This document shows, one piece after another, positions 2,021-54,756 of a stretch of DNA of 64,000 bases. Within the stretch, counting starts at the first letter, position 1, and every line of letters begins with the position of its first letter. Source of the stretch: Singulisphaera sp. GP187 (GTDB taxonomy: Bacteria > Planctomycetota > GCA-002687715); contig CAMDTN010000001.1 in NCBI GenBank assembly GCA_945907755.1, forward strand, positions 62,001 through 126,000, read 5' to 3'. Both the position numbers and the translations under genes were made by a program. Below the pieces are notes generated by a model that was not told where the DNA came from, ran no database searches, and saw nothing but the letters and a program-made list of their open reading frames with translations.

Positions 2021-2036
2021 CGGTGCGCTGCTCCGC

Positions 2037-6448: not shown

Positions 6449-6564
6449 TCTGGAAGCTCCTCAACGACACGGCTGCGGTTCCGCAATAAGTACGCGGGGC
6501 CGCGGCCACTATGTTGCCGGTGCACGCGGCGCGCTGCAGCGATACGCATCAGCGCGCGGTCAGC

Positions 6565-7668: not shown

Positions 7669-7677
7669 GTGTGCTCC

Positions 7678-29806: not shown

Positions 29807-31225
29807 TCACTTGGGCGGCAGCGTGACCAAGGTGTCGATGATGGTCATCATGCCGAAGTCTTCGTGCTCTAACAGATGGCAGTGCAGCACCGTGGGCCCG
29901 GGGAAATCCTCGAAGGCGATTTTCACCGTCACACTGCCGTAGGCAGGCACATTCACAGTGTCGCGCCACACAGGCATAGCCACTGGCAAGCCGTTGATGG
30001 CGGTGACCAAGAAACTGTTGGTGTGCAAGTGGAAAGGGTGATGCATGCCCGAGCCATCTTGAATGGTCCACTCTTCGATGCTGCCTAATAGTGGCGTGGC
30101 GTCGATGCGCGTCGGATCGAACGGCAACATGTTGATGCCGAATACCGGCGGCATGGCGCTGATGGCATCGAACGACCAATTGCGCAATGCCACGGGCGCA
30201 CCCGGGTCTGGGTTCACTGGCACGAGCGTTGTGGGCAGCGCCATGTTGAGGGGCGCACCGCTGACGACGATTTCTGCCAAGACCACTTCAGGAATGGCCG
30301 GTTCCATGTTGGCATTCTGGAAAGGCTTCTTGCGCAGCAAATAGGTGCCCACGGCACCCGCTTGCACCAGCACTTCTGCGCGCTGTCCTGGAATGAGCAT
30401 CAATTCCGAGACGCTCTGCGGCGCCGCGAGCGGTGAACCATCCAGCGCAATCTGATGCAAATTGTGGCTGTCCAGCGCCAAGGGGAAGTAGCGACTGCCA
30501 CTAGCCGCACACATGCGCCAACGCTGCACTTCGCCGGGGCGCATGTGAATGGTGGGACGCACTTTGCCGTTCACCAAGAACAAGTCGACTGCGGTTTCGG
30601 TCATCACAGGCACGGTGCCAGTGATTGGGTCAAGCTTAATGTTCGCGATCATCAAGATGCGGTCGCGCGCTGCGGCCACTTCGGGCACAAGATCTAACGC
30701 GCCGCGCACGATGATGGCGCCTTGCATACCGTTGGCTATTTGCCATGCCACCGTGCCGTGATGGTGCGGGTGGTACCAGAAGAAACCGCCGGTGTGATTC
30801 GTCGGAATCTGCATCGTGTAATTGTATGTGGCGCCGGGTGCCATGCTGATCAGCGGATTGTCGGAGTTGCCGAGCGGCGACACATGCATCCCGTGGCAGT
30901 GCAGGTTCGACAAGCGTGGGTCCATGCTGCCGACGGGCAGATTCGGCGGCAAGTCGATGTTGTTGGTGAGCGCGATCTGCAGCGAGTCGCCAGGATTGAC
31001 GATCAGCGTGGGGCCGGGAATGCCGCCGTCATAGCTGGCGCTTTGCAGGTACAAGCCGCTGTCGATGTCGTGAGACTTGTTCGACATGGTGAGGCTTGTG
31101 GCCAACACGCCGTTGGCACTCTGGCGCACGGCGGGGTTGGGCATGTCGTCGAGCAGCGGACCTGCTTGTTTGGTGCAGGCCACGGCGAACATCGGGACGA
31201 ATAGAAAAGCGTAGTGAAGGCGCAT
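29807..31225 (-). CDS. Multicopper oxidase, lipoprotein-anchored
   Basis: 472-residue laccase-like enzyme. All four copper segments are present: NLHCHGMHVS, WYHPHHHGTVAW, MHHPFHLHTNSF and LHCHLLEHEDFGMM. The last segment contains the type-1 cysteine and an axial methionine. The N-terminus MRLHYAFLFVPMFAVAC carries a lipobox (FAVAC), so the enzyme is probably attached to a membrane outside the cytoplasm. The substrate is open (phenols, Cu(I), Mn(II) or others). No methionine-rich loop of CueO type is obvious. It stands alone, divergent from the ABC exporter pair at 31.3 kb with 81 bp between the starts. Confidence 0.92.
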   Translation of the reverse strand: MRLHYAFLFVPMFAVACTKQAGPLLDDMPNPAVRQSANGVLATSLTMSNKSHDIDSGLYLQSASYDGGIPGPTLIVNPGDSLQIALTNNIDLPPNLPVGSMDPRLSNLHCHGMHVSPLGNSDNPLISMAPGATYNYTMQIPTNHTGGFFWYHPHHHGTVAWQIANGMQGAIIVRGALDLVPEVAAARDRILMIANIKLDPITGTVPVMTETAVDLFLVNGKVRPTIHMRPGEVQRWRMCAASGSRYFPLALDSHNLHQIALDGSPLAAPQSVSELMLIPGQRAEVLVQAGAVGTYLLRKKPFQNANMEPAIPEVVLAEIVVSGAPLNMALPTTLVPVNPDPGAPVALRNWSFDAISAMPPVFGINMLPFDPTRIDATPLLGSIEEWTIQDGSGMHHPFHLHTNSFLVTAINGLPVAMPVWRDTVNVPAYGSVTVKIAFEDFPGPTVLHCHLLEHEDFGMMTIIDTLVTLPPK

Positions 31226-31306
31226 GGTGCGATGCTACGGAAGCAACGCGCCCGGGCCAAACACACACCGCATGTGCCGAATCAAGTGCGGATAACATCC
31301 CTGACC

Positions 31307-32788
31307 ATGTTGCAAGAAACACAGCGCCGGCCGGGCGGGCTGACCGCTTTGGCGGTACTCAACTTCATCTTTGCTGGCTTCAGTCTGATGGGGCTGCTGT
31401 TCATGGCCGTGGCCTTCGTCGTGCTGAGCACAGTGAATGCCGCCGAATTGGACAAAGCCCGTGAGGATATTGCGGCTGCAGTGGGAAATGCGGGGCTTGC
31501 CGCCATCGCAGTGAACATCGCGCTCAGTTTGGTGGCGCTGGTGCTGCAAGTGATTAGTGCCATCGGCCTTTTGCGCATGGCGCCTGTCATGGGCCGCGTC
31601 ATGGGCAACGCCTTCGCAGTGGTCAGCATTGTCGCGGTCGTTGTCAGCGTGGTCATGGGCATTCCCTTCGGCGTGGGCACGGTGATCAATTTGCTGTATC
31701 CGTTGCTGACGCTGCTGCTATTGAACTTCACTTTCCGCGGCGACTTCATTCGTCGCGATGCGGGGCAGTGGGGGGCGGCGGGCGGCGAAGCGGCAGCGAG
31801 CGTGGCGAGTGGCATTAACAGCGCACAGTTTGAAAACGCACTAATCCACAGTGGTGCCTCTGACGCTGCCGGCGGCGTTGCGGGTGCCGCAACAGACTTG
31901 GCCGCCAGCGCAGGCGCACGCCGTGCACTGGTGGCGAGCTTCGGTTGGCGTCACGCGCTGCGCGGTGGCAGTGCCGTTCTGTACTTGCTCACTCTTTTGG
32001 GCGGCGGGCTGATGATCGCAGCGGCTTTCATCAATCCGGTGGAATCGCTGCTGCATGACAGCAAACCGCGGGCTGCGGAGCGCGCGGCGGAAATGCTGCG
32101 CAGCGGCATGGCGGTGGATGCCATCGGTTGGATCACTGGCGCCAGCGAGGCCACCTGTGAGTACTTCGTCAAAGAACAGCCCACGCTGCAAAGTGCCATC
32201 TTGTTGATGCTGCTGGCCTTCATGCCCTTCTTCGCGTGCATGGGTGGCTTCAACCAGACTGCTGGCGAAATCGGCAGCAAAGGCCTGCGTTTCCTTCTGT
32301 TGCGCACCGACCGGCGATCGCTGTTCCTCGGGCGCTTCATGGCGGCGCTCGTGTTTTCCACCATCGGACTGCTGGTGTTGACCGTAGTGACCACGCTGTA
32401 CCTCGCATGGAAGTTGGATTTGTATTCCACGCCGGCGCTGTTGTGGTGGGGCGCGCAGGGCACATTGGCACTGTGGTTGGTGATGCTGCCGCACTTGGCC
32501 GCCACCGCGTGGCTAAGCGCTTCGTTGGACAGCGCATTGGCCGCGTTCTCGTTGAGCATGGCTGTGGTCAGCGTGCCCATCGCGCTGTTGAAGGGCATCG
32601 AAATAGCGGTTGAGAAACTCAGCGATCACAAAATCGCGTGGATCGAACGCTTCATGCCGTGGGGCTGGAAATATGAATTGCTCGACCCGGCGTGGGACAC
32701 TCGCTTGATCGCTTCCGCCATGATGTTGGTGTTCACTGTGGTGTTCCTCGCCGGTGGCCTGCGGCGTTTCCAGGGGAGAGACCTGTGA
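31307..32788 (+). CDS. ABC-2 type permease with extra N-terminal membrane domain
   Basis: 493 residues. The first about 150 residues form a separate four-segment hydrophobic domain (for example LTALAVLNFIFAGFSLMGLL and VVSIVAVVVSVVMGIPFG). A glycine/alanine-rich linker (about 155-210) follows, and then an ABC-2 permease with about six segments. Cues in the permease part are MPFFACMGGFNQTAGEIGSKG and LLLRTDRRSLFLGRFMAAL, the cytoplasmic-loop pattern seen in transporters of the NatB/YhaP type. The start at 31307 is chosen because the hydrophobic domain begins right after; the longer frame to 31214 has no function visible. GTGA overlap couples it to the ATPase gene. Cargo unknown. Confidence 0.78.
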   Translation: MLQETQRRPGGLTALAVLNFIFAGFSLMGLLFMAVAFVVLSTVNAAELDKAREDIAAAVGNAGLAAIAVNIALSLVALVLQVISAIGLLRMAPVMGRVMGNAFAVVSIVAVVVSVVMGIPFGVGTVINLLYPLLTLLLLNFTFRGDFIRRDAGQWGAAGGEAAASVASGINSAQFENALIHSGASDAAGGVAGAATDLAASAGARRALVASFGWRHALRGGSAVLYLLTLLGGGLMIAAAFINPVESLLHDSKPRAAERAAEMLRSGMAVDAIGWITGASEATCEYFVKEQPTLQSAILLMLLAFMPFFACMGGFNQTAGEIGSKGLRFLLLRTDRRSLFLGRFMAALVFSTIGLLVLTVVTTLYLAWKLDLYSTPALLWWGAQGTLALWLVMLPHLAATAWLSASLDSALAAFSLSMAVVSVPIALLKGIEIAVEKLSDHKIAWIERFMPWGWKYELLDPAWDTRLIASAMMLVFTVVFLAGGLRRFQGRDL

Positions 32789-33732
32789 GCGAAATCGTTG
32801 TTCGTTCGCGCGGCCTGACCAAACATTTTGGCGGCGTGTGTGCGCTGGATGGCATCGACATCGAAGTGCCGCGCGGCAGTTTGTATGCGCTGGTGGGCGC
32901 GAACGGTGCCGGCAAGACTACTTTCTTTTCGGTGGTGGCGGGTTTTTTGAGGCCCACTGCTGGCGAAGTGGAAGTGCTGGGGCAGCGCGCGCCTGAAGGC
33001 GGCGTGTTGCGCGGGCGCTTAGGCATGTTGCCGCAAGACGCGAGCTTCTTGGCCGGCGTGCCTGTGTTGGAGCAGCTCGAGTTCTGTGCGCAGTTGCAGG
33101 GCCTGAGCGCTGCGGCAGCGAAGCACGCAGCCATGCAGGCGTTGGATGCCGTTGGTTTGGGCGACGTGGCCCAACGCAATCCGCGCGCGCTGTCGCACGG
33201 CATGTTGAAGCGCGTGGCCCTTTGCCAAGCGTTCCTCGGCAACCCCGAATTAGTGTTCCTCGACGAACCCACTGCGGGTTTGGATCCTGAAACCGCGCGG
33301 CGCGTGCGCGACTTGGTGCGCGCGTGGCGCGGGCATCGCACCGTGGTTATTTCCAGCCACAATTTGGCGGAACTCCAAGACCTGTGTAGCCATGTGGCCA
33401 TCTTGCATCGCGGGCGCATCATCACTGCGGGCACCATGGACGCGATCCTCGCGTCCGGCTGTGTGTTCCGCTGCGTGTTGGACGAGCCCGCCGATGCTGC
33501 ATTGTTGGATGCGTTGCGCGCGCTGGCGCAAGTGGCGAAGGTGAGCGTGTTGGACCGCGAGCTCACCATCGAAGGCACCAATGGCACCGATCGTCGCGCT
33601 GCGGCGCAAGCGATTCTTGAGTGCTTGCTGGCATTGCAGCAGCCTCCGCGCAGTTTCAGCGAAGGCGCTTCGCTGGAGCGTCGCTTCCTCGAAGCCGTGG
33701 GCGGAAAATCTGACGGCCTCGGCGGCACATGA
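32785..33732 (+). CDS. ABC transporter ATP-binding protein
   Basis: 315-residue ATPase partner of the preceding permease. Walker A is GANGAGKTT, the signature region is LSHGMLKRVALCQAFLG, and Walker B is LVFLDEPTAGLDP with the H-loop ISSHNLAEL. The signature reads SHG rather than SGG, as in several ABC-2 exporters. A C-terminal domain from about 215 (CVFRCVLDEPADAALLDAL) resembles the DUF4162-like regulatory part. The GTG start at 32785 overlaps the permease stop. Confidence 0.92.
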   Translation: MSEIVVRSRGLTKHFGGVCALDGIDIEVPRGSLYALVGANGAGKTTFFSVVAGFLRPTAGEVEVLGQRAPEGGVLRGRLGMLPQDASFLAGVPVLEQLEFCAQLQGLSAAAAKHAAMQALDAVGLGDVAQRNPRALSHGMLKRVALCQAFLGNPELVFLDEPTAGLDPETARRVRDLVRAWRGHRTVVISSHNLAELQDLCSHVAILHRGRIITAGTMDAILASGCVFRCVLDEPADAALLDALRALAQVAKVSVLDRELTIEGTNGTDRRAAAQAILECLLALQQPPRSFSEGASLERRFLEAVGGKSDGLGGT

Positions 33733-33741
33733 TTTCTGCAC

Positions 33742-34275
33742 ATGCACATTGATTACTTAGCCAATTGCCAGCAGCACACCGACACCATCGCGGGCTGGGT
33801 GTTTGCCGAGTGGGGTTATTTGCGCCCGGGCTTCACTCTGGAAAACGCGACGCGAGAGTTTCGTGAGCGGGCGGTCATCGAGCGCATCCCGTTGGCGCTG
33901 GTTGCGCTGGACGGCGCCGAAGTGATCGGTTGCATCAACATCAAGCTGAGTGAAGACCTCACGCTGCCTGGCGTGACTCCGTGGATTGGCGCTCTGTATG
34001 TGCGCTCCGATTGGCGCCGCAAGTCTGTTGGCTCGCAATTGCTGGCGTTCGCCGAAAGCGTTGCGGCGCGCCTCGGCATCCGCGCGCTGCATCTTTCCGC
34101 GACCGATGCCCTCGCGTTCTACGAGCGTCGCGGCTGGGGCGTCCTCTCGCGCCACTTCCTCCAGGGCGAACATGTCTGCGTAATGGTGAAATATTGCCAA
34201 GATGGCTGCAAAACCGACATGCCGCCTGATTTCATTTGTCCCCCAATATCCCCGCCGGAGACGCCCGCATCATGA
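33742..34275 (+). CDS. GNAT-family N-acetyltransferase with replaced C-terminus
   Basis: Acetyl-CoA-dependent transferase of 177 residues. The central part has the GNAT acetyl-CoA loop (IGALYVRSDWRRKSVGSQLL), beta-bulge strand and the FYERRGWGVL motif near residues 125-134. The last 28 residues after HVCVMVK (from YCQDGCKTDM) do not look like a GNAT end. They coincide with the start of foreign DNA: homology to the second copy of this gene's tail ends exactly at that point (34190). I infer that an insertion replaced the native tail and the frame runs on by chance. It may still be active, since the fold is nearly complete. Confidence 0.82.
   Translation: MHIDYLANCQQHTDTIAGWVFAEWGYLRPGFTLENATREFRERAVIERIPLALVALDGAEVIGCINIKLSEDLTLPGVTPWIGALYVRSDWRRKSVGSQLLAFAESVAARLGIRALHLSATDALAFYERRGWGVLSRHFLQGEHVCVMVKYCQDGCKTDMPPDFICPPISPPETPAS
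34101..34190 (+). repeat. 90-bp direct repeat, left copy (inside GNAT 3' part)
   Basis: Aligns without gaps to 36971-37060, 2870 bp away, with 8 mismatches in 90 bp (91 % identity). Similarity stops sharply on both sides. The pair frames the pentonate dehydratase/lactonase segment like the duplicated ends of an integrated element. Confidence 0.88.
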
Positions 34276-35996
34276 ATACACCCGACGGCAAGCCAAACAG
34301 ACGCAGTCGAGATTGGTATGGCAAGAACGACAAGGACGGTTTCATTCACCGTTCGTGGATGAAAAACCAAGGGTTCCCGGATCATGTATTCGATGGCCGC
34401 CCCGTTATCGGTATCTGCAACACTTGGTCAGAACTTGCCCCCTGCAACTCTGGCCTGCGCGAGTTAGCCGAGGGCGTCAAACGCGGCGTGTGGGAGGCGG
34501 GCGGTTTTCCGGTCGAATTCCCCGTTACTTCGCTGGGCGAAACCCAGATGAAACCCACGGCCATGCTGTTCCGCAACCTGCTCGCCATGGATGTCGAAGA
34601 ATGCATCCGCGCCTACGGCATGGACGGCGTTGTCCTGCTGGGTGGTTGCGACAAAACCACTCCAGGTCAGTTGATGGGGGCGGCAAGCGTGGATCTTCCG
34701 GCCATCGTCGTTTCGTCGGGCCCTATGCTCAACGGTAAATGGCAGGGCAAGGACATCGGGTCAGGCACGGATGTGTGGCGCTTTTCCGAAGCGGTCCGTG
34801 CGGGCGACATGACGCTGAAAGATTTCATCGCCGCCGAATCGGGGATGTCGCGCTCCAAGGGTGTCTGCATGACGATGGGCACTGCCTCAACCATGGCCAG
34901 CCTCGTCGAGGCGATGGGCATGTCGCTGCCGCTCAACGCCGCGCTTCCAGCGGTCGACAGCCGCCGCATGGCGCTGGCACATCTTTCTGGCATCCGCATC
35001 GTCGAGATGGTGAAGGAAGACATCCGCCCTTCTCAGATCCTGACTCGCGGCGCATTTGAAAACGCCATTCTTGCCAACGCCGCGATCGGCGGCTCCACCA
35101 ATGCCGTCGTGCATTTGCTGGCCATCGCAGGCCGCGTCGGTGTCGATCTGCATCTGGAGGATTTCGAAATTGGCTCGGGTATTCCACTGCTGGTCAATTG
35201 CATGCCCTCGGGCAAATACCTTATGGAGGATTTCGCATACGCCGGTGGTATGCCAGTCGTCCTGAAGGAACTTGGGGCCCATCTGCGCAAATCCCAGACC
35301 GTGTTGGGCCGCGATATGTCCGAATACGCCTTGGGCGCTGAGAACTACAACACCGATGTGATCCGCCCCTTTGACGGTCCCGTCAAACCCGCTGCGGGCA
35401 TCCGCGTATTGAAGGGCAACCTCGCCCCGAACGGCGCTATTGTCAAACCCTCTGCTGCAACCCCCGCGCTGTTGGAACACGAAGGCTTCGCCCATGTGTT
35501 CGACAGCATCGAAGACATGAAAGCCAGCATCGACCGCGACGACCTTCCTGTCACGGCGGACACCATACTTGTCCTCAAAGGCTGCGGCCCCAAGGGTTAT
35601 CCCGGTATGCCAGAAGTCGGCAACATGCCGCTCCCGGCGCGTCTGGTGCGGCAGGGCGTGCGCGACATGATCCGGGTTTCGGACGCCAGAATGTCGGGCA
35701 CCGCATATGGCACCGTCGTGTTGCATGTCTCACCTGAAGCCCAAGCAGGCGGCACCCTTGCCCTCGTGAAAACCGGCGACCGCATCAAGCTATCTGCCCG
35801 CGACGGCGTCCTCGAACTTCTCGTGCCCGAGGCCGAACTGGCCCAACGCCGCGCCGCATGGATCCCAGACGAGCCTCATTACACTCGTGGCTTTGCAAAG
35901 CTTTATGTCGATCATGTGCAGCAATCCCACCTTGGCGCCGACCTTGATTTCCTTGTCGGCAAAGACACCCGCCCTGTCACCCGCGAGAGCCATTGA
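34272..35996 (+). CDS. Sugar-acid dehydratase, IlvD/Edd family (L-arabonate or other pentonate dehydratase type)
   Basis: 574-residue Fe-S dehydratase. Cluster cysteines are visible in ICNTWSELAPCN (first half), GGCDKTTPG and SKGVCMTMGTAS. The IlvD/Edd pattern continues with GGSTNAVVHL, AYAGGMP, LKGCGPKGYPGMPE and MSGTAYG. Length and the EYALGAENYNTDVIRP stretch fit the pentonate dehydratases rather than dihydroxy-acid dehydratase (longer Edd and IlvD patterns differ). The start at 34272 gives the usual MNTPDGK end. Base use (many GTC, ATC, CTC, CCC codons) contrasts with neighbours that favour GTG, TTG and CTG. It is followed after 62 bp by the lactonase; together they would catalyse lactone opening and dehydration in a non-phosphorylating pentose pathway. 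Likely acquired. Confidence 0.9.
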   Translation: MNTPDGKPNRRSRDWYGKNDKDGFIHRSWMKNQGFPDHVFDGRPVIGICNTWSELAPCNSGLRELAEGVKRGVWEAGGFPVEFPVTSLGETQMKPTAMLFRNLLAMDVEECIRAYGMDGVVLLGGCDKTTPGQLMGAASVDLPAIVVSSGPMLNGKWQGKDIGSGTDVWRFSEAVRAGDMTLKDFIAAESGMSRSKGVCMTMGTASTMASLVEAMGMSLPLNAALPAVDSRRMALAHLSGIRIVEMVKEDIRPSQILTRGAFENAILANAAIGGSTNAVVHLLAIAGRVGVDLHLEDFEIGSGIPLLVNCMPSGKYLMEDFAYAGGMPVVLKELGAHLRKSQTVLGRDMSEYALGAENYNTDVIRPFDGPVKPAAGIRVLKGNLAPNGAIVKPSAATPALLEHEGFAHVFDSIEDMKASIDRDDLPVTADTILVLKGCGPKGYPGMPEVGNMPLPARLVRQGVRDMIRVSDARMSGTAYGTVVLHVSPEAQAGGTLALVKTGDRIKLSARDGVLELLVPEAELAQRRAAWIPDEPHYTRGFAKLYVDHVQQSHLGADLDFLVGKDTRPVTRESH

Positions 35997-36058
35997 TGCT
36001 AGTCTTGCTGACCTGCACGCTTGCGCGCGAATGATCGCCAAAGCAATAAGGCCCAAGC

Positions 36059-36910
36059 ATGATCCATGACCACCGCCGCTGCGAGTTGGGGGAAGGCCTG
36101 CTCTGGCATCCCATTCGGGAGCAACTGTTTTGGTTCGATATCACCGGTAAGGCCATGCTGTCTCAGGATCGCACGGGACAACGCCTATGGCGCTTTCCCG
36201 AAATGGTTTCCGCCGCAGGGTGGGTCAGCCAGGACACTCTGCTGATCGCCAGTGAGCGCGGCATTTTTCTATTCGATATTGAATCTGAAGCGGTCGAATC
36301 TCTTTGCCTTCTGGAGGCTGACAGACCGCAAAACCGTTCGAACGACGGCCGAGCCGATCCGCAGGGCGGCTTCTGGATCGGGACCATGAGCAAGACTAAC
36401 GCCGCAGGGGCGGGCGCTATCTACCGTTATTACAAGGGTGAAATCCGGTGCCTCTACAACGGGATAACAATCCCGAATGCGATTTGCTTCACGCCCGACG
36501 GCAGGACCGCGCAATTCACTGACACCGCCCATGGTCGCGTGATGCGGGTGTCGCTTAACACCGAAGGCTGGCCAAGTGGCGAGCCCGCAGTGTTCCTTGA
36601 TCTCGCAGCACAAGGTCGCGCTCCCGACGGTGCCGTCATCGATGTCGATGGTGTCTTGTGGTTGGCCGAATGGGGTTCAGCGCGCGTAGCAGCCTATGCG
36701 CCTGATGCGAGCTTTCTGCGTGCCATTCCTTTCGATGCGCCTCACACCTCGTGCCCCGCCTTTGGTGGACCAGATCTGGGCACCTTGTTCTGCACATCGG
36801 CGCTGAAGGGAATGGATGCTGCCGCCCGCGCCGCGCAGCCCGACTCCGGCAAGACTTTCGCTGCGCCCGGCGTTGCGCGTGGGCAAATAGAACACAGGGT
36901 CCTCCTGTGA
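36059..36910 (+). CDS. SMP-30/gluconolactonase-family lactonase (probable aldonolactonase)
   Basis: 283-residue six-bladed beta-propeller. Conserved metal ligands can be placed: glutamate in CELGEGLLW (about 8-12), asparagines in NRSNDGRADPQG and TIPNAICF, and aspartate in GAVIDVDG. The sequence GGFWIGTMS is typical of the family. It would open a sugar lactone to the aldonate that the adjacent dehydratase uses. Codon preference matches the dehydratase, so both came together. The stop at 36910 is 60 bp from the decayed GNAT tail at 36971. Confidence 0.88.
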   Translation: MIHDHRRCELGEGLLWHPIREQLFWFDITGKAMLSQDRTGQRLWRFPEMVSAAGWVSQDTLLIASERGIFLFDIESEAVESLCLLEADRPQNRSNDGRADPQGGFWIGTMSKTNAAGAGAIYRYYKGEIRCLYNGITIPNAICFTPDGRTAQFTDTAHGRVMRVSLNTEGWPSGEPAVFLDLAAQGRAPDGAVIDVDGVLWLAEWGSARVAAYAPDASFLRAIPFDAPHTSCPAFGGPDLGTLFCTSALKGMDAAARAAQPDSGKTFAAPGVARGQIEHRVLL

Positions 36911-36970
36911 AGCGCAGCCTAGGCGATTGAAATTATCCCGAGCACTGGACTGAAGGTTGTGTTGCGCACC

Positions 36971-37060
36971 GACCGCCGCTCTCGCGTTCTACGAGCGTCG
37001 CGGCTGGGTCGTCCTCTCGCGCCATTTCCTATAGGGCGAACATGTCTGCGTGATGGTGAA
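36971..37060 (+). repeat. 90-bp direct repeat, right copy
   Basis: Mate of 34101-34190, with 8 mismatches. The differences include CTCCAG to CTATAG, which creates a stop in the GNAT frame. Flanking sequence on both sides differs from the left copy. Confidence 0.88.
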
Positions 37061-37091
37061 GCCCGCGGGCCCACGCGCTGACATTCCTTGA
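36972..37091 (+). pseudogene. Decayed GNAT 3'-end fragment
   Basis: In the GNAT frame this reads TAALAFYERRGWVVLSRHFL, an internal TAG, then GEHVCVMVKPAGPRADIP and a stop. It covers only the last about 40 codons of the gene at 33742. The ending after VMVK differs from the upstream gene and may be the native C-terminus displaced by the insertion. The upstream part of the gene is missing, so it cannot be functional. Confidence 0.75.
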
Positions 37092-37157
37092 CAGTCTTGC
37101 GCTGCGCTACACTGCTCCGTCGAATCGAAGTTGGGCCGACAAAATAGGAATGCAAAA

Positions 37158-37382
37158 ATGAAGGCAAGCTCAAACTGCCCGAAGTGCAATGGCTCGGTCG
37201 AGGTCGGTTACGTGCTCGACAAGTCGTTGCAGGTTACTGCTGCGTGCTGGGTTGCCGGTGAACCACCGACGACGTTCATAGGCAAGCGATCCTCGAAGGA
37301 GGGGCATGGGCCGCGCATCAGAGCCGTGAGATGTACGAAGTGCGCGTTCCTCGAGCTGTATGCGGATGGACCATTAGAGTGA
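37158..37382 (+). CDS. Small zinc-ribbon protein (DUF6487-like)
   Basis: 74 residues with two CxxC pairs: CPKC near the N-terminus (8-11) and CTKC near residue 61. The middle reads VEVGYVLDKS and CWVAGEPPTTF. The pattern CPxC...G(Y/F)VLD...W..G.P...C..C matches a family of small zinc-ribbon proteins scattered among bacteria. AGGA lies 8 nt before the ATG. Function unknown. A 5'-truncated relative lies at 38506-38724 behind the next gene. Confidence 0.75.
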   Translation: MKASSNCPKCNGSVEVGYVLDKSLQVTAACWVAGEPPTTFIGKRSSKEGHGPRIRAVRCTKCAFLELYADGPLE

Positions 37383-37523
37383 TGGGCGCAGCTCAGCCTT
37401 CGCAGTTGACTTACGACATTCGGCGGCGGCAATATGATCGTCGTTGCACTGAAATTCTCTGCCCGGTTCGGGGTTGAGGGAGTAGCCACGCCAACCACTT
37501 TTTGCAACGCGAAAGGGCACACC

Positions 37524-38507
37524 ATGAGGGTTTTCGGAACGACCGCTCTGCTGATCTTGGCGTCGGTTCTCACTTCGGTTCCTTGTCTACAGACTAGCTA
37601 CGACCCCCTTCTCACCACCAAAGATCTGCCCGAGCAACAGGACATGGTTGTCAAGGATGAGAAGCGCTCGCGCGTGATTCCGATCCGCGTTTATCTCCCC
37701 AAGGACAAGGCGCTCGCAGCCGTCATTCTCTTCAGCCATGGCCTCGGTGGCAACCGCGAAGGCTCGGCGTTCCTCGGCAACCACTGGGCCTTGCGCGGAT
37801 ATGTCGCCGTCTTTCTGCAACATCCGGGAAGCGACGACAGCGTTTGGAAAGACAAGCCTGCCGCCCAGCGCATGGCCGCGATGGAGCAAGCAGCAAACAT
37901 AGAGAACTTCCAGCTCCGCGTCCAAGACGTTTCCGCCGTCATCAATCAACTCGAATTCTGGAACAAAGAAAACTCTCATCCTCTCGCGGGACGGTTGGAC
38001 ATGAAGCGCATCGGCATGTCGGGCCACTCGTTCGGCGCGGTCACGACGCAGGCGGTGAGCGGTCAGGCCGCGCGAATCGGGAAGGGGTTCACGGACTCAA
38101 GAATCAAGACGGCTGTCATGATGAGTCCGAGCATTCCCCGTGGCGACGGCGACCTCAAGCGGGCGTTCGGAGGCGTGAAGATCCCGTGGATGTTGCTCAC
38201 CGGGACCAAGGACACCGCTCCCATTGGAGGGGCTGATGTGAAGTCCAGGCTCGCCGTATTTCCGGCCTTGCCGCTAGGCGGAAAGTACGAACTGGTTCTG
38301 GACAAGGCCGAGCACTCCGCCTTCACCGAGCGCGCCTTGCCCGGAGAGACGGAGAAGCGGAACCCGAACCATCATCGGGCCATTCGCGCGGTCACAACGG
38401 CGTTCTGGGATGCCTACCTTCGCGAGGATGCCGAGGCCAAGGTGTGGCTCGACGGCGCGGAGGTGCGCAGCGTGCTCGAGAAGGACGACCAGTGGCAGAA
38501 GAAATGA
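37524..38507 (+). CDS. Exported dienelactone-hydrolase-like alpha/beta hydrolase
   Basis: 327 residues. A signal segment MRVFGTTALLILASVLTSVP leads the protein. The oxyanion region is LFSHGLGGNREG. The nucleophile elbow is IGMSGHSFGAVTTQ (GHSFG; serine about 174). The aspartate is probably in TGTKDTAP and the histidine in KAEHSAF. The set matches predicted dienelactone hydrolases and PAF-acetylhydrolase-like enzymes, exported. The start at 37524 has AAAGG upstream. A longer open frame to 37434 lacks a ribosome site. Its stop codon overlaps the breakpoint of the truncated zinc-ribbon copy, so the gene itself may have arrived by an insertion. Confidence 0.85.
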   Translation: MRVFGTTALLILASVLTSVPCLQTSYDPLLTTKDLPEQQDMVVKDEKRSRVIPIRVYLPKDKALAAVILFSHGLGGNREGSAFLGNHWALRGYVAVFLQHPGSDDSVWKDKPAAQRMAAMEQAANIENFQLRVQDVSAVINQLEFWNKENSHPLAGRLDMKRIGMSGHSFGAVTTQAVSGQAARIGKGFTDSRIKTAVMMSPSIPRGDGDLKRAFGGVKIPWMLLTGTKDTAPIGGADVKSRLAVFPALPLGGKYELVLDKAEHSAFTERALPGETEKRNPNHHRAIRAVTTAFWDAYLREDAEAKVWLDGAEVRSVLEKDDQWQKK

Positions 38508-38724
38508 GCAGGGCTTCGTGCTCGACAACACTTATGGCGCGCGAGTGGTTAGCCAGTGGGTGGCAGGCGCCCCCATGAAGTCGTTCTGGACAGGCACGAA
38601 GTTGCCCGATGAGAAGCTCATTCCCATCGGGACCTACCGCTGTTCTTCTTGCGGCTACCTCGAGTCGTATGCGCGGCCTGAATTCGCCGCTCGGCTTGTG
38701 CCCCGGGGTAGGCTGAAGGGGTAG
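38506..38724 (+). pseudogene. 5'-truncated zinc-ribbon gene (relative of 37158-37382)
   Basis: The frame starting at 38506 reads EQGFVLDNTYGARVVSQWVA and later TYRCSSCGYLESYARPEF, up to the TAG at 38722-38724. It corresponds position by position to the intact gene's EVGYVLDKS, CWVAGEP and VRCTKCAFLELYADGP, but lacks the start codon and the first CPxC pair. The break falls within 2 bases of the hydrolase stop. It has no start of its own, so it is judged a remnant. The longer frame in the same phase upstream is antisense-like noise within the hydrolase gene. Confidence 0.8.
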
Positions 38725-38735
38725 CCGCACGCACG

Positions 38736-40460
38736 ATGGGTGCGAGGCTGCGCACTGTGAGCCAAATACCAATGACGCCGGAAGAGCCAGACTGGAAACA
38801 GCTTTCTGAGAGCGTGCGCTCGTGGCTGCGGTCGTCACCCGAAGCGCGGTGCTCCGCGCTGCGTTTGGTGGGCTGGTTGGTCAACACCATCAACGAGGCG
38901 CAGCAAGAGACTGGCGCAAGTGGCGCGGCGCAGCGCACGGAAACGGAATCGGAATCGCAAGCGAAGTGTGCAGCGGAAGTCGCAACCGCAACGCCAACGG
39001 TGCAGCAAGAACCCTTGCCCTTCGTTGTGGATGGTGCGCCGCTCACTGCAGAGCCGTTGGCCACAACGCTATTCACAGCGCTATCCACAGCGCCAGCCGC
39101 AGTGAGCGCGGCTTCCCACCGCGAACCGGAGTTAGAGCCGGCGGTCGCCGCAGCGCTGATCAATCAAGGCCGCATCACGCGCTCGCAGAGCGTCGTCATC
39201 AACGCGCTGCCGCCAGCGCCCGTTCGCAAAGTGCCGGTGGATTTAGCGGTGCTCGCGCAACGCCTGCGCACCAAAGCCAAGGCCTGCCGTCTGTGCGCCG
39301 ACCGACGCGCACTTGGACCGCCCACCGGCGCCATCAATCCAGAACACCGTGCGCGCTTCGACAAGCTCATCATCGAAGCCAAGAGCGTGCCCAACTGCTA
39401 CCTGTGGATGCTGCATTGGCAGGTGGATTTGCCGGGCGAGGGAGCGCTGCGCTTGATGGCAGAATCTTTCGACAATCTCGCGGCAGTGATCGAAGCGGCG
39501 CGCGACATATCTGCAGAGTCACGTTTCGAAGTGACGGAACTGCGTGCACTGTTGGAGCTCCTGTCCGAGTGCCAGTCTGCGCTGCGCGTTCTGGTGATGG
39601 AGAAGACCAGTGTCACCGAGGACTCCGATCAGCTCATCGCGTTTGGCTGGCTGCGCGACGCCACCGATGCCAGTGGCGTTTATGTCGAGCGCTACATGCG
39701 CCTGAACGACCCGGCGGACCCCGAAATGTGGGCCGAGCGCGCGCAACGCGTGCAACAGTTGAACGCAGCGGTGTCTAACCGCAAGGAGAACGCGCGCCAA
39801 TTGGACAAGGCTTGGGAAAAGTTGCGCTGGCACGCCAAGCGCATTCCAGATTTGGGAGCGGACAAAGCTCGCGAAGATTGGAGCCGCGTGTATTCGAGTG
39901 TGGATTACTTGCTGGAGCGCGGCGTGCAACCGTCGAATGCGGATTTGCGCCAAGTGCTGCTGCCGGTGATCGAAGTTCGTCCCACTGATGCAGTGCCTTC
40001 GCAGGGGTGGACGCTGGTGCTGGAAGCCATCGATCAGTGGCTGGCTCACGAAGAAGCGGTGGGCCCGCCGTCCGCTGCTCCCAAGGAACAACCGGCACAT
40101 GTGCTGCAAGCCGCAGAGTTGCTGCAAGGTGCGCGGGTGGTTCTGGTGGGGGGCGACGAGCGCCCAGAATCGCGCAAGGCGCTGGTGCGCGATCTGCGCC
40201 TTGGCGAACTGGAGTGGATCAGCTCGCGCGAACATTCGTCGTTAGAGAAATTCACCCCAGCCATCGTGCGCCCCGAAACGAGGCTGGTGTTGCTGTTGAT
40301 CCGCTGGAGCTCGCACTCCTACGAAGGCATCAGCGACATCTGCGCCAAGCACAACAAGGTGTTTGTGCGCATTCCGAAGGGCTACAGCCCGTCCATGATT
40401 GCGCACCATGTGCTGGAAAACGCCAGCGAGCAGTTGCGCGCCATGCGCCCCGGCATTTGA
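38736..40460 (+). CDS. Large protein with C-terminal DUF2325 domain
   Basis: About 574 residues. The first 45 are helical (WKQLSESVRSWLRSS; LRLVGWLVNTINEAQQ). A low-complexity alanine/threonine/proline linker runs to about 160. A helical middle part follows and includes a short CRLCADRR pair. The last about 115 residues fit DUF2325: a strand-loop ARVVLVGGDERPES, RLVLLLIRWSSHSYEGI and NKVFVRIPKGYSPSMI, a Rossmann-like layout in which H of SSHS is a conserved feature. Starts at 38772 or 38757 are also possible; no clear ribosome site decides. The role of DUF2325 is unknown. It lies just outside the insertion patch, with codon use like the rest of the window. Confidence 0.75.
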   Translation: MGARLRTVSQIPMTPEEPDWKQLSESVRSWLRSSPEARCSALRLVGWLVNTINEAQQETGASGAAQRTETESESQAKCAAEVATATPTVQQEPLPFVVDGAPLTAEPLATTLFTALSTAPAAVSAASHREPELEPAVAAALINQGRITRSQSVVINALPPAPVRKVPVDLAVLAQRLRTKAKACRLCADRRALGPPTGAINPEHRARFDKLIIEAKSVPNCYLWMLHWQVDLPGEGALRLMAESFDNLAAVIEAARDISAESRFEVTELRALLELLSECQSALRVLVMEKTSVTEDSDQLIAFGWLRDATDASGVYVERYMRLNDPADPEMWAERAQRVQQLNAAVSNRKENARQLDKAWEKLRWHAKRIPDLGADKAREDWSRVYSSVDYLLERGVQPSNADLRQVLLPVIEVRPTDAVPSQGWTLVLEAIDQWLAHEEAVGPPSAAPKEQPAHVLQAAELLQGARVVLVGGDERPESRKALVRDLRLGELEWISSREHSSLEKFTPAIVRPETRLVLLLIRWSSHSYEGISDICAKHNKVFVRIPKGYSPSMIAHHVLENASEQLRAMRPGI

Positions 40461-40590
40461 AAGGGCAGCTTTCTGCTTGCGCAAGCCGAGATGGCTCCGC
40501 CGCCGCTTGAACAATGCGCCCAGAATTGGGACGCTCTTCGCGTTCTCGCCGCCGCATGCTGTCTGCATCCGGTGCTGATTGGAGTTGTCG

Positions 40591-41772
40591 ATGACTGACG
40601 CCTACATCGTGAGTGCTGTACGAACCCCGGTGGGGAAGTTCCTCGGGTCGCTGAAAGACATTTCGGCACCACATCTCGGTGGCTTGGTGGTGCGCGAAGC
40701 CGTGCTGCGCGCAGGCATCGACGCCGCGCGCGTCGAAGAAGTGATCATGGGCTGCGTGCTGCCCGCAGGCTTGGGGCAAAACCCCGCGCGTCAGGCCGCC
40801 ATCCACGGTGGCATCCCGCACGCTGCGGGCGCGCTCACCATCAATAAGGTGTGCGGCTCAGGCTTGAAGGCGGTTGCGCTGGCGGCGCAAGCCATCCGCT
40901 GTGGCGACCACGAAATCGTCATCGCTGGCGGCATGGAAAACATGAGCCGCTCGCCGTACTTGCTGCCATCGGCCCGCGAAGGGTCGCGCCTTGGCCACGC
41001 GCAAATGCTGGACAGCATGGTCATCGACGGCCTGTGGGACATCTATAACGATTTCCATATGGGCATCACTGGCGAGAAGGTGGCCGAGAAGCATGGCTTC
41101 ACGCGCGAGCAACAAGATGTGTTTGCCGTTGACAGCCACCGCAAAGCCGCAGCCGCTCAAGCGCGCGGGGATTTCGCCGCCGAAATGTTGGCCGTGGAAT
41201 TGGCGCAGAAGAAGGGGCCCGCACTGCGCTTCGCAATAGATGAATCTGTGCGCAGCGACACCACTCTGGAAGCGCTGGCGAAATTGCGCCCGGCATTCAA
41301 GAAGGACGGCACGGTGACAGCCGGCAATGCGCCAGGCTGCAACGACGGTGCCGCCGCGCTGATGGTGGCCTCCGAAAAGGCTGTGAAAGAGCTGGGACTG
41401 AAGCCGCTCGCGCGCATCATGGGCGCAGCCACCGGCGGGTTGGCCCCTGAGTGGGTGATGCTGGCACCTGTGGTGGCGACGCAGAAACTGAACCGCAAAC
41501 TGGGCCTGAGCATGGACGCCTGGGATGTGGTGGAACTGAACGAAGCGTTCAGCGTGCAAGCGCTGGGCGTGATGAAGGAATTGGAAGCTGATGCATCCAA
41601 GGTGAATGTGAATGGCGGCGCGGTGGCCATCGGGCACCCGATTGGTGCCAGCGGCGCGCGCGTGCTGGTGACGCTGCTGCATGCGTTGCGCCAACGCGGC
41701 GGCAAGCGCGGGCTGGCGTCGCTGTGCTTGGGCGGCGGCAACGCCGTTTCTATGGGGGTGGAACTATGCTGA
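40591..41772 (+). CDS. Acetyl-CoA C-acetyltransferase (thiolase)
   Basis: 393-residue thiolase II type enzyme acting on acetoacetyl-CoA or short 3-ketoacyl-CoA. The acyl-carrying cysteine is in NKVCGSGLKA (about 88), the histidine in AIGHPIGASGAR (about 348), and the second cysteine in SLCLGGGN (about 379). The start at 40591 has GGAG 6 nt before it. It opens the acyl-CoA cluster (40.6-48.4 kb), and its stop overlaps the next start by 7 bp. The window holds a second thiolase at 53578. Confidence 0.94.
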   Translation: MTDAYIVSAVRTPVGKFLGSLKDISAPHLGGLVVREAVLRAGIDAARVEEVIMGCVLPAGLGQNPARQAAIHGGIPHAAGALTINKVCGSGLKAVALAAQAIRCGDHEIVIAGGMENMSRSPYLLPSAREGSRLGHAQMLDSMVIDGLWDIYNDFHMGITGEKVAEKHGFTREQQDVFAVDSHRKAAAAQARGDFAAEMLAVELAQKKGPALRFAIDESVRSDTTLEALAKLRPAFKKDGTVTAGNAPGCNDGAAALMVASEKAVKELGLKPLARIMGAATGGLAPEWVMLAPVVATQKLNRKLGLSMDAWDVVELNEAFSVQALGVMKELEADASKVNVNGGAVAIGHPIGASGARVLVTLLHALRQRGGKRGLASLCLGGGNAVSMGVELC

Positions 41773-42311
41773 CGCTGCGATTGCTCCTATGCGCAGGCTT
41801 GCTGCTGTTGGCCGCTTGCGGCGACGACATTCAGTACGCAGCGCCACCGGTGTCGGACAACGCTGTGTCTCATGCAGGCGAAACTGCCGAAGAACATGCG
41901 GCCCACGCAGCAGCAGACCCATTCGCAGATCCGGCGGATGCCGCTGCCGCCGCGCCAGCCACAGCAGCGCCGTCCGCGGATCAGGTTTATTTCTCGGGTC
42001 GCGTGGAACTGGCTCCGGGCTTCACGCCGCCTGCCACCTGCACTATCTATGTCATGGCAGGACCGCCGCCGAAGGGCCGCCCGCCATTGCTGTCGCGCCG
42101 CTACGACAAGCCCACATTCCCGTTCGAATTCACGCTGGCTCAAAGCGACATCCCCTTCAAAGATTCGAAGGTGGAAGGCCTGCAAGTGCTGAGCGTGATC
42201 TTGTCCGAGAAGGGCCCAGTGATGGCCACCGAAGGCGTTTACTTGCGCTGTCCGCTGGAAACGCCGCAAACCGCTGGCGCCACAGGCATCGTGCTCACCA
42301 TTCGCAACTGA
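41766..42311 (+). CDS. Lipoprotein with CcmI-C-terminal-like domain
   Basis: 181 residues. The lipobox is LLLLAAC with C18. An acidic, alanine-rich, histidine-containing linker (about 30-70) follows. The C-terminal about 110 residues (VYFSGRVELAPGFTPPATCT; TIYVMAG; FPFEFTLAQSDIPF) resemble the small beta domain found at the end of cytochrome-c-biogenesis CcmI proteins, with strands of the form SG-V-LAP and PF-F-L. No haem-biogenesis gene lies near. It is embedded in an acyl-CoA operon, overlapping the thiolase stop, and the reason is not evident. Confidence 0.7.
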   Translation: MLTLRLLLCAGLLLLAACGDDIQYAAPPVSDNAVSHAGETAEEHAAHAAADPFADPADAAAAAPATAAPSADQVYFSGRVELAPGFTPPATCTIYVMAGPPPKGRPPLLSRRYDKPTFPFEFTLAQSDIPFKDSKVEGLQVLSVILSEKGPVMATEGVYLRCPLETPQTAGATGIVLTIRN

Positions 42312-42323
42312 GAGGATCTGTTC

Positions 42324-43178
42324 ATGCTTCATCCGAAGGTCACTGTGATTGGCTCTGGCACCATGGGCAACGGCATCGCGCATGTGTTGGCGCAATATCA
42401 GCGCCAAGTGACGCTGGTCGATGTGAAGCAGGAATATCTCGATCGTGCGATGGGCGTGATTGGAAAAAACCTCGACCGCCAAGCGAAGAAGGGCGCGCTC
42501 GCCGAAGCGCCTGAAGCAGTGCTGGCGCGCATCACGCCATCCACAGACTTGGACCGCGCTGCAGGCAGCACGCTCGTGATCGAAGCGGTGCCCGAAGTGG
42601 CCGCGCTGAAAAAAGACCTCTTCCGCAAGTTGGATGCTTTGATGCCCGCAGGCGTAGTTCTGGCCAGCAACACATCCAGCATTTCCATCACCGAAATCGC
42701 GGCGGTGACCAAGCGCCCAGCGTCAGTCATCGGCATGCACTTCATGAACCCCGTGCCGCTGATGAAGCTGGTCGAAGTCATTCGCGCCCACGACACATCC
42801 GACGCCACTTGTGCCGAAGTGATGGCGCTCTCAAGAGAACTGGGCAAGACGCCCATCGAAGTGAATGATTACCCCGGCTTTGTCAGCAACCGCGTGCTGA
42901 TGCCGATGATCAACGAAGCGGCCTTCTGCTTGATGGAAGGTGTCGCCACGCGCGACGCTATCGACGAAGTGATGAAGCTGGGCATGGGGCACCCCATGGG
43001 TCCGCTGCAACTCGCAGATTTCATCGGGCTGGATGTGTGCCTGTCCATCTTGCAGGTTTTAGTCGACGGCTTGGGCGACCAACGCTATCGCCCTTGCCCG
43101 CTGCTGAAGAAACTTGTGGCCGCCGGGCACCTCGGGCGCAAGACCGGCCGCGGCTTCTACGACTACAAGGTCGCCTGA
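42324..43178 (+). CDS. hbd: 3-hydroxybutyryl-CoA (3-hydroxyacyl-CoA) dehydrogenase
   Basis: 284-residue NAD-dependent dehydrogenase of beta-oxidation. The Rossmann motif GSGTMGNG is at 10-17, and the catalytic histidine/glutamate region is [18 protein letters not shown]. The second domain has [33 protein letters not shown] and the ending [14 protein letters not shown]. All features are canonical. It follows the lipoprotein by 12 bp and precedes the acyl-CoA dehydrogenase by 3 bp. Confidence 0.95.
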
Positions 43179-43181
43179 AGC

Positions 43182-44321
43182 ATGGATTTCGCGCTGAATC
43201 CCCGCGAATCCGAGCTGCAAGCCAACGCCCGTGCCTTTGCGGCTACTGCGTTGCCGGGGGCGATGCAGCGCGACGCCGCGCATGAATTTCCAGTGGCGTT
43301 GCTGCAAGAGGCCGCGCGCCGTGGCTACTGCGGATTGGGCGTTCCCACGGCGTTGGGCGGCATGGGCCTTGGCGCCTTAGAACAGTGCATCGTGCTGGAA
43401 GAAATCGCTCGCGCTGACACCTCGCTGCATGTCACTCTTTCGGTGCACAACTCACTCGCTTGCGGGCCCATCTTGCGTTGGGGCACTGCGGCGCAGCAAC
43501 AGCAGTGGCTGCCCGCTATGGCAGCGGGCCAGTGTTTGGGTGCGTATGCGCTGACCGAACCCGCCAGCGGCTCCGACGCAGCGGCGCTGCACACCAAAGC
43601 GGTGCGCGATGGCACAGGCTGGCGCTTGAACGGCACCAAACTGTGGATCACCACGGGCGTCAGCGCCAACACATTCGTCGTGTTCGCACGCACAGACCCC
43701 GCCGCGCAAAAGACCAAGGGCATTAGTGCCTTCATCGTGTCTGGCGACGCACCTGGTTTCACGCGAGGCAAGCCCGAAAATAAATTGGGCATTCGCTCCA
43801 GCGAAACCGTGCAACTATTTTTCGAAGATGTCCTGCTTCCTGCTGCTGCACTGCTCGGCGAAGAGAACCGCGGCTTCGGTTATGCCATGGCCACGCTGGA
43901 TGGCGGACGCATCGGCATCGCCACTCAAGCCGTGGGTTTGGCGCAAGCCGCGCTGGACGCAACGGTGGCCGCGTTGAAGCCTGTCGCTGCGGCCAAAGGC
44001 TGCGCCTTCACATCGCAACACGCAGATTTCATAATGGCCGACATGGCCACGCGCACCGAAGCTGCGCGCTTGTTGGTGTGGCGCGCCGCAAGGTTGCGCG
44101 ACCAAGGCATTCCGCACACGCCCGAAGCGAGCATGGCCAAGTTATTCGCATCGGAAGCGGCGAATCGCAATTGCCGCGAAGCCGTGGCGCTATTAGGCGC
44201 AGAGGCTTACAGCGGTGGCACCGTCGAAAGATTGCTGCGCGATGCGCGCGTCACTGAAATCTATGAAGGCACCAGCGAAGTGCAGCGCATGTTGATCGCG
44301 CGCGCCTTGAGGGGTGCCTGA
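43182..44321 (+). CDS. Acyl-CoA dehydrogenase
   Basis: 379-residue FAD enzyme catalysing alpha,beta-dehydrogenation of acyl-CoA. It has the FAD/substrate motifs YALTEPASGSDAAALHT and LWITTGVSANTF, and the R-S-S-E-T loop LGIRSSETVQLFFEDV. The catalytic glutamate lies in IYEGTSEVQRM (about 361). Chain-length preference is likely short, as butyryl-CoA-type enzymes share the EGTSE pattern, but that is inference. The stop is 1 bp before the MeaB start. Confidence 0.94.
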   Translation: MDFALNPRESELQANARAFAATALPGAMQRDAAHEFPVALLQEAARRGYCGLGVPTALGGMGLGALEQCIVLEEIARADTSLHVTLSVHNSLACGPILRWGTAAQQQQWLPAMAAGQCLGAYALTEPASGSDAAALHTKAVRDGTGWRLNGTKLWITTGVSANTFVVFARTDPAAQKTKGISAFIVSGDAPGFTRGKPENKLGIRSSETVQLFFEDVLLPAAALLGEENRGFGYAMATLDGGRIGIATQAVGLAQAALDATVAALKPVAAAKGCAFTSQHADFIMADMATRTEAARLLVWRAARLRDQGIPHTPEASMAKLFASEAANRNCREAVALLGAEAYSGGTVERLLRDARVTEIYEGTSEVQRMLIARALRGA

Positions 44322-44322
44322 C

Positions 44323-45249
44323 ATGGACATGGCAGCAGGCATTCTCGCAGGAGACATGCGCGCGTTGGCGCGCGGGCTGACACTGGTGGAAGAACGATTG
44401 CCCGGTGCTCGCGAACTGTGCGTGAAACTGGCGCCCCACACGGGACGCGCATTGCGCGTGGGCGTAACGGGCGCGCCAGGCGCTGGCAAGAGCACGCTGA
44501 TTGACGCATTGATCCGCGCCGCGCGCGCTCGCGGCGAACGCGTGGCGGTGCTGGCGGTAGACCCCTCGTCGCCTCGCACCGGCGGCGCCTTGCTGGGCGA
44601 CCGCGTGCGCATGACCAGCCATGCCAACGACGACGGCGTGTTCGTGCGCAGCATGGCCAGTCGCGGCGCGCTGGGCGCATTGGCTCCGAATGCAGGCGAA
44701 GCGCTGGACTTATTCGATGCCGCGGGCTTCACGCTGCTGTTTGTTGAATCGGTGGGTGCAGGCCAAGCCGATGTCGACATCGCGGCGGAATCGGACATCA
44801 CTTTGGTGCTGAGTGCCCCCGGTGGCGGCGACAGCATTCAAGCTATGAAAAGCGGCATTCTTGAAATCGCAGATTTGTGGGTGGTGTCCAAAGGCGACAA
44901 CCCGCAAGCTGCGGCCTTGAAGCACGAACTGTTAGCCATGTTGGCTTTGGGTGGCGCAGATCAATTGGAAGAGCGCGTGTGTGTGGTGGCGGCGTTGGCC
45001 AACCAAGGTGTGGAAGAGTTGTTAGCAAAGATGTTGGCCGCTGGGGCCGCGGCTCGCGCCGATGGAGCGTTCGCAGCGCGCAGACGCCAGCGGGTGCGGC
45101 GGCGCATCTTGGCGGCGGCGGCAGAATTGTGCGCCGAGAAATTGCCCACGGACACACCCTTGCTGACCGAACTGGAAGCGCGCATTCGCGCGGGCGATCT
45201 GTCGGTGGTTGGCGCTGCGCGAGCACTGCTTTCCGGAGGCAATGTATGA
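44323..45249 (+). CDS. meaB: Methylmalonyl-CoA mutase-associated GTPase MeaB (ArgK/LAO-type chaperone)
   Basis: G3E-family GTPase (308 residues) that guards the B12 cofactor of methylmalonyl-CoA mutase. Walker A is GAPGAGKST (50-58). The MeaB blocks [30 protein letters not shown] and [15 protein letters not shown] are present. The guanine-specificity motif is VVSKGDN (about 188-194), where most relatives have NKAD. The asparagine is replaced by serine, which could relax GTP specificity. The C-terminal dimerisation arm is present but short. The next gene overlaps by ATGA and encodes the mutase's B12 subunit. Confidence 0.9.
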
Positions 45250-53577: not shown

Positions 53578-54756
53578 ATGCCCCGTGCTGTGGTCACCCA
53601 CGCATTGAGGACTCCCATCGGGAAGTTCCTCGGTCAGTTCAAGGATGTGTCCGCAGTAGATCTGTGGGCTGTCGTGGGTCGCAGTGTGTTGGCAGCGGCC
53701 CAGTTGGAGCCCGGCGCCGTTGAAGATGCCTTCATCGGCTGCGCCCGCCAAGCGGGTTTGGGCCCCAATCCCGCACGCCAAGCCGTGCTGAAGGCCGGCT
53801 GTGCCGACACTGTCACCGCCACCACGGTCAACATGGCCTGCGGCTCTGGGCTGAAGTCCATCATCCTCGCGGCGCAGTCCATCGCCCTTGGCGAAGCCAA
53901 GGTCGTTTTGGCCGGCGGCATGGAAAGCATGTCGCGGGTTCCGTTTTTGCTGCCGCAAGCGCGGCTCGGATATCGCTTGGGCCACAGCAAGATGGTGGAT
54001 GCGATGTACCAAGATGGTTTTCATTGCCCCATGGCAAATCAGTTGATGGGCGAAACCGCCGAGACTTTGGCGCGCCAGTACGGCATCAGTCGTGAAGAGC
54101 AAGATGAATTCGCCGCACGCTCGCACGAGAAGGCGGCTGCGGCAGCGGCGCGTCTGGCGGAAGAAATTGTCGCTGTGAGCGTGGCGGCGAAGAGTGGCGC
54201 GGTGGAAGTGCGCTTGGACGAACAGGTGCGCGCCGACATGACCGCCGCGAAATTGGCGGGGCTGCCTGCCGTGTTTGCGCCCGAGGGTGGAACGGTGACT
54301 GCTGGGAATGCATCGGGCATCACCGATGGCGCGTCCGCGTTGGTGCTGATGTCCGAAGATGAAGCGCAACGCCGTGGGTTGGTGCCGCTGGCCACATTTG
54401 AAGCATGGTCCGCTGCTGGGGTCGACCCGCGCGTGATGGGCATTGGCCCGGTGCCCGCAGTGAAAGCCTTGGAAGCCAAGCACGGTTTGGCTCGCGACGC
54501 CTTCGATCTCGTGGAACTGAACGAAGCCTTCGCAGCGCAGGCACTGGCCTGCGACCGCGAACTGAAATTGGATGCACAGCGCGTCAATGTCAACGGCGGC
54601 GCGATTGCACTGGGGCACCCCATCGGGTCCACCGGCGCACGCATCGTGGTGACGCTGCTGCACGAACTGCGCCGTCGCAACGGCAAACTGGGCTTGGCCA
54701 CGCTGTGCATCAGCGGCGGGCAAGGCCTGGCTTGTGCCTTCAGGAGGGCTTCCTGA
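53578..54756 (+). CDS. Acetyl-CoA C-acetyltransferase (second thiolase)
   Basis: 392-residue thiolase, similar in length and layout to that at 40591. The cysteine in VNMACGSGLKS (about 86) accepts the acyl group; the histidine is in ALGHPIGSTGAR and the second cysteine in TLCISGGQG. The start is the ATG at 53578 with AAGGA about 12 nt before; the longer frame is not supported. It leads an operon with cyclophilins, enoyl-CoA hydratase and an aconitase-type enzyme. Confidence 0.94.
   Translation: MPRAVVTHALRTPIGKFLGQFKDVSAVDLWAVVGRSVLAAAQLEPGAVEDAFIGCARQAGLGPNPARQAVLKAGCADTVTATTVNMACGSGLKSIILAAQSIALGEAKVVLAGGMESMSRVPFLLPQARLGYRLGHSKMVDAMYQDGFHCPMANQLMGETAETLARQYGISREEQDEFAARSHEKAAAAAARLAEEIVAVSVAAKSGAVEVRLDEQVRADMTAAKLAGLPAVFAPEGGTVTAGNASGITDGASALVLMSEDEAQRRGLVPLATFEAWSAAGVDPRVMGIGPVPAVKALEAKHGLARDAFDLVELNEAFAAQALACDRELKLDAQRVNVNGGAIALGHPIGSTGARIVVTLLHELRRRNGKLGLATLCISGGQGLACAFRRAS

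Follow-up and report, generated by a model that had tools for sequence, protein, structure and literature searches.

The window, as we call the whole stretch of 64,000 nucleotides of Singulisphaera sp. GP187 DNA that was analysed, contains a patch of genes between two recognisable flanks, and all genes and remnants named here lie on its forward strand. On the left, an ABC transporter ATPase gene (32692..33732; Pfam ABC_tran) is conserved in the genus, with orthologues at 70% in genome G001 and 63% in genome G002. It is followed by a GNAT acetyltransferase gene (33742..34275; Pfam Acetyltransf_1), a gene for an IlvD/Edd-family sugar-acid dehydratase (34272..35996), an SMP-30/gluconolactonase-family gene (36059..36910; Pfam SGL) and the 3' part of a second GNAT copy, a remnant with an in-frame TAG (36970..37060). 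Next come an intact gene for a DUF6487-like, four-cysteine zinc-ribbon protein (Zn1; 37158..37382), a complete gene for an alpha/beta hydrolase with a hydrophobic N-terminus (37524..38507) and a beheaded zinc-ribbon fragment with a single remaining CxxC pair (Zn2; 38506..38690, frame open to 38724). The right flank consists of a DUF2325-like gene common to the window and G001 (38736..40460; profile scan and synteny) and a thiolase gene that is, by synteny, a conserved neighbour in G001 and G002 (40579..41772).

The slot and its flanks

The two other genomes of the genus show the same slot in different states. In G001, a gap of 74 bp separates the ABC ATPase gene from the DUF2325-like gene, and thiolase and 3-hydroxyacyl-CoA dehydrogenase-like genes come next, while in G002, where the DUF2325-like gene was not found, the thiolase gene comes directly after the ABC gene. 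In the window, the ABC gene is separated from the DUF2325-like gene by some 5 kb of extra DNA, which is unique among the three genomes. The left boundary of this extra DNA lies at 33733..33741, with the G001 match ending at 33734, a few bp from the ABC stop codon, and the right edge lies between 38690 and 38735. We rejected the idea that part of the G001 spacer survives at this right edge, where the local alignment was no better than shuffles.

Judging from these arrangements, the DUF2325 difference between G002 and the others could be either a gain or a loss. Since the slot has undergone two or more changes in this genus (three states in three species), the "hot spot" of the sequence-only reading is justified in that sense. 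Three states of one slot across three species are also what the locus has in common with known gene-accretion (variable) slots, from which it differs by having neither a recognised integrase gene nor terminal inverted repeats. As regards a composite transposon or insertion sequence, a profile scan gave no transposase among the patch genes, and no inverted repeats were seen at the patch ends. An Rfam scan of 30000-45000 and a plasmid DNA search with 37060-38740 returned no match, and outside the genus neither a thiolase nor a DUF2325 neighbour was seen at ABC-gene loci. Elsewhere in the window, 41515-41745, a stretch inside the thiolase gene, has 71% DNA similarity to 54496-54727, probably as part of thiolase paralogues, and 63354-63400 is a 47-bp near-palindrome (85% self-complementary), perhaps a terminator, perhaps a small hairpin element.

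The GNAT repeat and the dehydratase-lactonase pair

The insertion-type scar that had been noticed at the GNAT gene is real: 34100-34190 and 36970-37060 form a direct repeat of 91 bp at 91% identity (E 5e-30) that flanks the dehydratase and lactonase genes and carries a TAG in its second copy. In the first GNAT gene, the repeat ends at 34190, beyond which the C-terminus differs. This GNAT is rare in the phylum, with distant matches in two other genomes of the 392 searched (E 1e-12). The dehydratase, identified by a profile scan and a search of a plasmid collection, has its closest DNA in that collection in Ruegeria (76.5% over 1.7 kb), and its protein relatives in G004 and G005, genomes of the same family, reach only 62%. 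Together with the lactonase-family gene it likely forms a sugar-acid catabolic pair (34272-36910), perhaps gained from alphaproteobacteria. Protein searches of plasmids with the GNAT and the hydrolase found distant relatives only. Judged by these affinities, the contents of the patch are of mixed origin, with a Ruegeria-like dehydratase, a planctomycete-type hydrolase and a phylum-rare GNAT.

The repeat could have arisen by a Campbell-type insertion in which a resident GNAT gene recombined with a circle that carried the dehydratase-lactonase pair and the 3' part of a GNAT gene, the 91-bp direct repeats being left behind. The repeat around the pair fits this course of events, as does a second GNAT copy that runs into a plausible natural C-terminus, but homologous recombination would be inefficient on so short a repeat with 9% divergence, and an empty site for the pair was not found. 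We regard it as a tentative explanation, somewhat short of an even chance, and for the GNAT scar only; it cannot account for Zn1 and Zn2, which are too dissimilar. It is compatible with the overall reading given below, the adjacent zinc-ribbon scar then being an independent event.

Zinc-ribbon copies and the hydrolase joint

The sequence-only reading had described a full gene of 74 codons starting at 37158, and its extent of 37158-37382 is confirmed. The 74-aa product, MKASSNCPKCNGSVEVGYVLDK...RCTKCAFLELYADGPLE, has the motifs CPKC...CTKC and shares two CxxC pairs around a common core with a third zinc-ribbon copy of this genome on contig C37, which makes both resemble PF20097 (DUF6487); a Bradyrhizobium plasmid homologue carries the annotation "PF20097 family protein". 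Differences from that family are that Zn1 scores just under the curated cut-off of the profile (22.3 against 24 bits, with all four cysteines there) and that Zn2 is without the first pair and goes unrecognised. The C37 copy, VTNSPQQCPKCGSGMEQGFVLDNTHGGRVVS*WATGAPLKSFW..., has kept its CPKC head but is interrupted by an in-frame TAG.

The relative proposed at 38506-38724, which has lost its start and the first CPxC pair, is confirmed as well. Zn2, recognised by DNA and protein homology to the C37 copy and by DNA homology to the Myxococcales homologue at locus L064, reads EQGFVLDNTYGARVVSQWVAGAPMKSFWTGTKLPDEKLIPIGTYRCSSCGYLESYARPEFAAR... and EQGFVLDN...RCSSCGYLESYA, with CPxC absent. Its first CxxC pair is missing, where two pairs are needed for one zinc site, and a Pfam scan of it gave no match. 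It was found in its own genome with Zn1 as query at E 7e-4 and with the family profile, which itself contains Zn2, at E 4e-32. Zn2 is 83% identical to the C37 copy in amino acids, compared with 36% for Zn1, and 82% identical to it in DNA. Versions of the beheaded gene with an intact head are present in C37, L064, L065 and L068, so that Zn2 is a beheaded relic. At the 3' end, its homology stops one or two codons short of the relatives' stops and the frame continues to 38724, which may be natural variation. We also considered whether a single split gene could have yielded Zn1 and Zn2 as its two halves, and rejected this because their sequences overlap and are too different.

From a codon comparison of Zn2 and C37 (dS 0.63, dN 0.10; dN/dS ~0.16), their divergence was probably mostly under constraint, so that the truncation and the C37 defect would be later than their split. 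The same ratio, together with a frame that is open from 38410 to 38724, might be taken to mean that Zn2 is still a working gene, its translation being coupled to the hydrolase or beginning at the listed upstream start, an ATG at 38410 within the hydrolase gene. Yet every full-length relative in the alignment keeps the first CxxC pair that Zn2 lacks, the frame opened by the ATGA overlap with the hydrolase stop is not that of Zn2, and the constraint measured since the split can predate the truncation, all of which makes a functional Zn2 highly improbable. We do not expect this remnant to make a working protein, while expression is possible for Zn1 and the hydrolase, both of them intact.

The hydrolase is of the PAF-acetylhydrolase II/PETase-like type (PF03403, 28.1 bits against a cut-off of 20), a likeness that extends to its completeness and its hydrophobic N-terminus; it differs in that it is not specific to this locus. 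Its best relative, in G029, has 69% identity and an equivalent C-terminus, and this match of the C-termini means that the gene is complete. At E 1e-15, hydrolase matches occur in 73 of 392 genomes of the phylum, with none in G001-G010 at the cut-off used. The proposal that the hydrolase was inserted as a unit between two copies of the same gene was not supported, given that it runs to its natural C-terminus and occurs without a zinc ribbon in many planctomycetes. As far as sequence comparison goes, the hydrolase does not behave as a recognisable mobile unit. Nor does the order zinc ribbon-hydrolase-zinc ribbon look ancient: among 63 zinc-ribbon and 20 hydrolase loci that were fetched, some with flanks of 1.5 kb only, none has the two genes side by side.

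Homology of Zn2 had been said to start within 2 bp of the hydrolase stop, and this is right: the stop codon occupies 38505-38507 and the homology starts inside it, at 38506. With L064, DNA homology runs from 38506 to 38688 and with C37 from 38494 to 38690, where the 12 bp before 38506 double as hydrolase coding sequence. At the junction (38486..38507, forward strand), 12 of 20 bp at the close of the hydrolase gene agree with the equivalent 5' stretch of the zinc-ribbon gene on C37 when the two are aligned in the register of Zn2, a similarity equalled at about 0.2% of other hydrolase positions in a test that was chosen after the joint had been seen, and one that is absent when L064 is used instead of C37. 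This frequency makes it plausible, though not proven, that illegitimate recombination, acting where the two sequences are briefly similar, joined Zn2 to the hydrolase end. On its 5' side, Zn2 is cut within coding sequence and not at a cassette boundary and, with no attC in the patch (see below), no integrase step is visible.

It is very unlikely that the joint is an artefact of assembly or binning, that is, a chimeric contig. The genome is fragmented (2.68 Mb in 94 contigs), its joints are read from the assembly, and it holds three zinc-ribbon copies, repeats being a known cause of misjoins. However, both flanks are syntenic with G001, the contig thus returning to the right locus, and a collapse of Zn2 and C37 is hardly expected at only 82% DNA identity.

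Integron relic, cassettes and the origin of the patch

This genome appears to have had an integron that is now a relic, represented by an integrase fragment that is clearly of IntI type. Contig C36 encodes the C-terminus of an integron integrase on its reverse strand (928-1143), scoring 105.7 bits on the last 72 positions of TIGR02249, compared with 78 and 76 bits for two Xer-like genes on the same part. The best PDB match of the fragment is IntI4 of Vibrio, to the last residue (E 1e-21; XerD 7e-12), and over 54 residues it is 81% identical to the integron integrase of G003, a genome of the same family. Adjoining it is an attC-like element of 154 bp with the core GTCTAAC ... GTTAGGC. Scored as a paired attC alone, this element reaches 8.0, which is within the chance range, and its case therefore rests on its position and on its homology to an element that immediately precedes the zinc-ribbon gene on C37 (81% over 71 bp, E 2e-10). 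The C37 element also scores low as a paired attC, and the far side of that gene is broken by repeated, transposase-like sequence. On the same contig (locus L020, 14978-15799 and 19762-20000), we note a 239-bp exact repeat, 22-bp inverted arms and transposase-like frames beside the zinc-ribbon gene, as if an insertion sequence had inserted directly after it.

Integrons in Planctomycetes are already known (PMC2426708, PMC8352920). The present case resembles sedentary chromosomal integrons in the C36 integrase fragment with its attC-like element, in the C37 zinc ribbon behind a related element and in zinc-ribbon cassettes that sit in attC arrays of other bacteria. It differs from them in that the integrase is only a C-terminal fragment and no attC can be detected in the patch, where the breaks in the damaged genes fall within coding regions.

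The sequence-only reading had proposed testing whether the zinc-ribbon family marks recombination sites in other genomes. It does at two loci, in both of which the gene is a cassette: in L068, a Verrucomicrobia MAG, attC sites at 901-993 and 1240-1332 flank the zinc-ribbon gene and recur at 2571, 3281 and 3746 (90-96%) along 3 kb, and in L072, a Chloroflexi MAG, the gene lies in an attC array with near-identical repeats at 821, 3524 and 4180. As a general rule it fails, with clear arrays at only 2 of the 25 named zinc-ribbon loci and no attC seen beside the gene at the other 23 or at 28 planctomycete loci with short flanks, so that cassette status is occasional and not universal in this family. 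In the literature searched, neither DUF6487 nor PF20097 is named in any paper we found, and zinc ribbon, integron and gene cassette come together only in a HEPN survey.

One might extend the cassette origin to the whole patch as a decayed array in which GNAT, dehydratase-lactonase, zinc ribbon, hydrolase and zinc ribbon were inserted by an integrase and the attC sites then eroded. The patch genes all share one orientation, GNATs and small orphan genes often occur as cassettes, and there is both an integron relic in this genome and zinc-ribbon cassettes elsewhere. Against this, a scan of 33731-38740 with strict and relaxed attC cores gave nothing above background or other 5-kb stretches despite well-preserved coding parts, and a cassette test of Zn1 and Zn2 (an attC directly 3', a boundary at GTTRRRY) found no site in the patch above background. 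The intergenic gaps of 62-141 bp leave little room, and the cuts that shortened Zn2 and the GNAT remnant both fall within coding sequence. We consider such an array distinctly unlikely.

Our preferred reading, to which we give a probability of roughly 0.7, is an accretion slot of a small planctomycete genome that took up mixed foreign DNA and retains a fragment of a cassette family left by illegitimate recombination. The DUF2325-like gene would have been gained between the ABC ATPase and thiolase genes (or lost in G002), and some 5 kb of foreign DNA from mixed sources would have arrived next. The zinc-ribbon genes would belong to a mobile family that travels as integron cassettes in some bacteria and whose C37 copy still lies behind an attC-like site. 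Zn2 would be a piece of such a gene, presumably derived from a cassette and fused to the hydrolase end, probably through microhomology, in an event that removed the start and one half of the zinc site. What the locus seems to show is nothing out of the ordinary: a variable slot gained genes and decay followed. It does not look like a new kind of element.

What is new here is a modest link of PF20097-like zinc ribbons to integron cassettes, which ties the uncharacterised PF20097/DUF6487 family to cassette arrays in two other phyla and offers a small worked case of an integron-less genome that retains cassette genes as pseudogenes and fragments. A more far-reaching and, in our view, doubtful proposal is that these zinc ribbons recur as integron cassettes across phyla, have a selected function and leave fragments scattered at accretion slots once the integron is gone. 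If true, PF20097-like fragments would be tracers of vanished integrons.

The G003 integrase that resembles the C36 fragment is itself in two frames and is followed by attC-like sites on the same strand, of 99 and 58 bp, at 3619 and 7636 of locus L167 (contig C33 of G003). At the same locus, 2036-7693 holds an unusually large cassette-like gene of about 1275 codons that ends just before an attC-like site; its N-terminus looks SIR2-type by eye, and it could be a defence gene.
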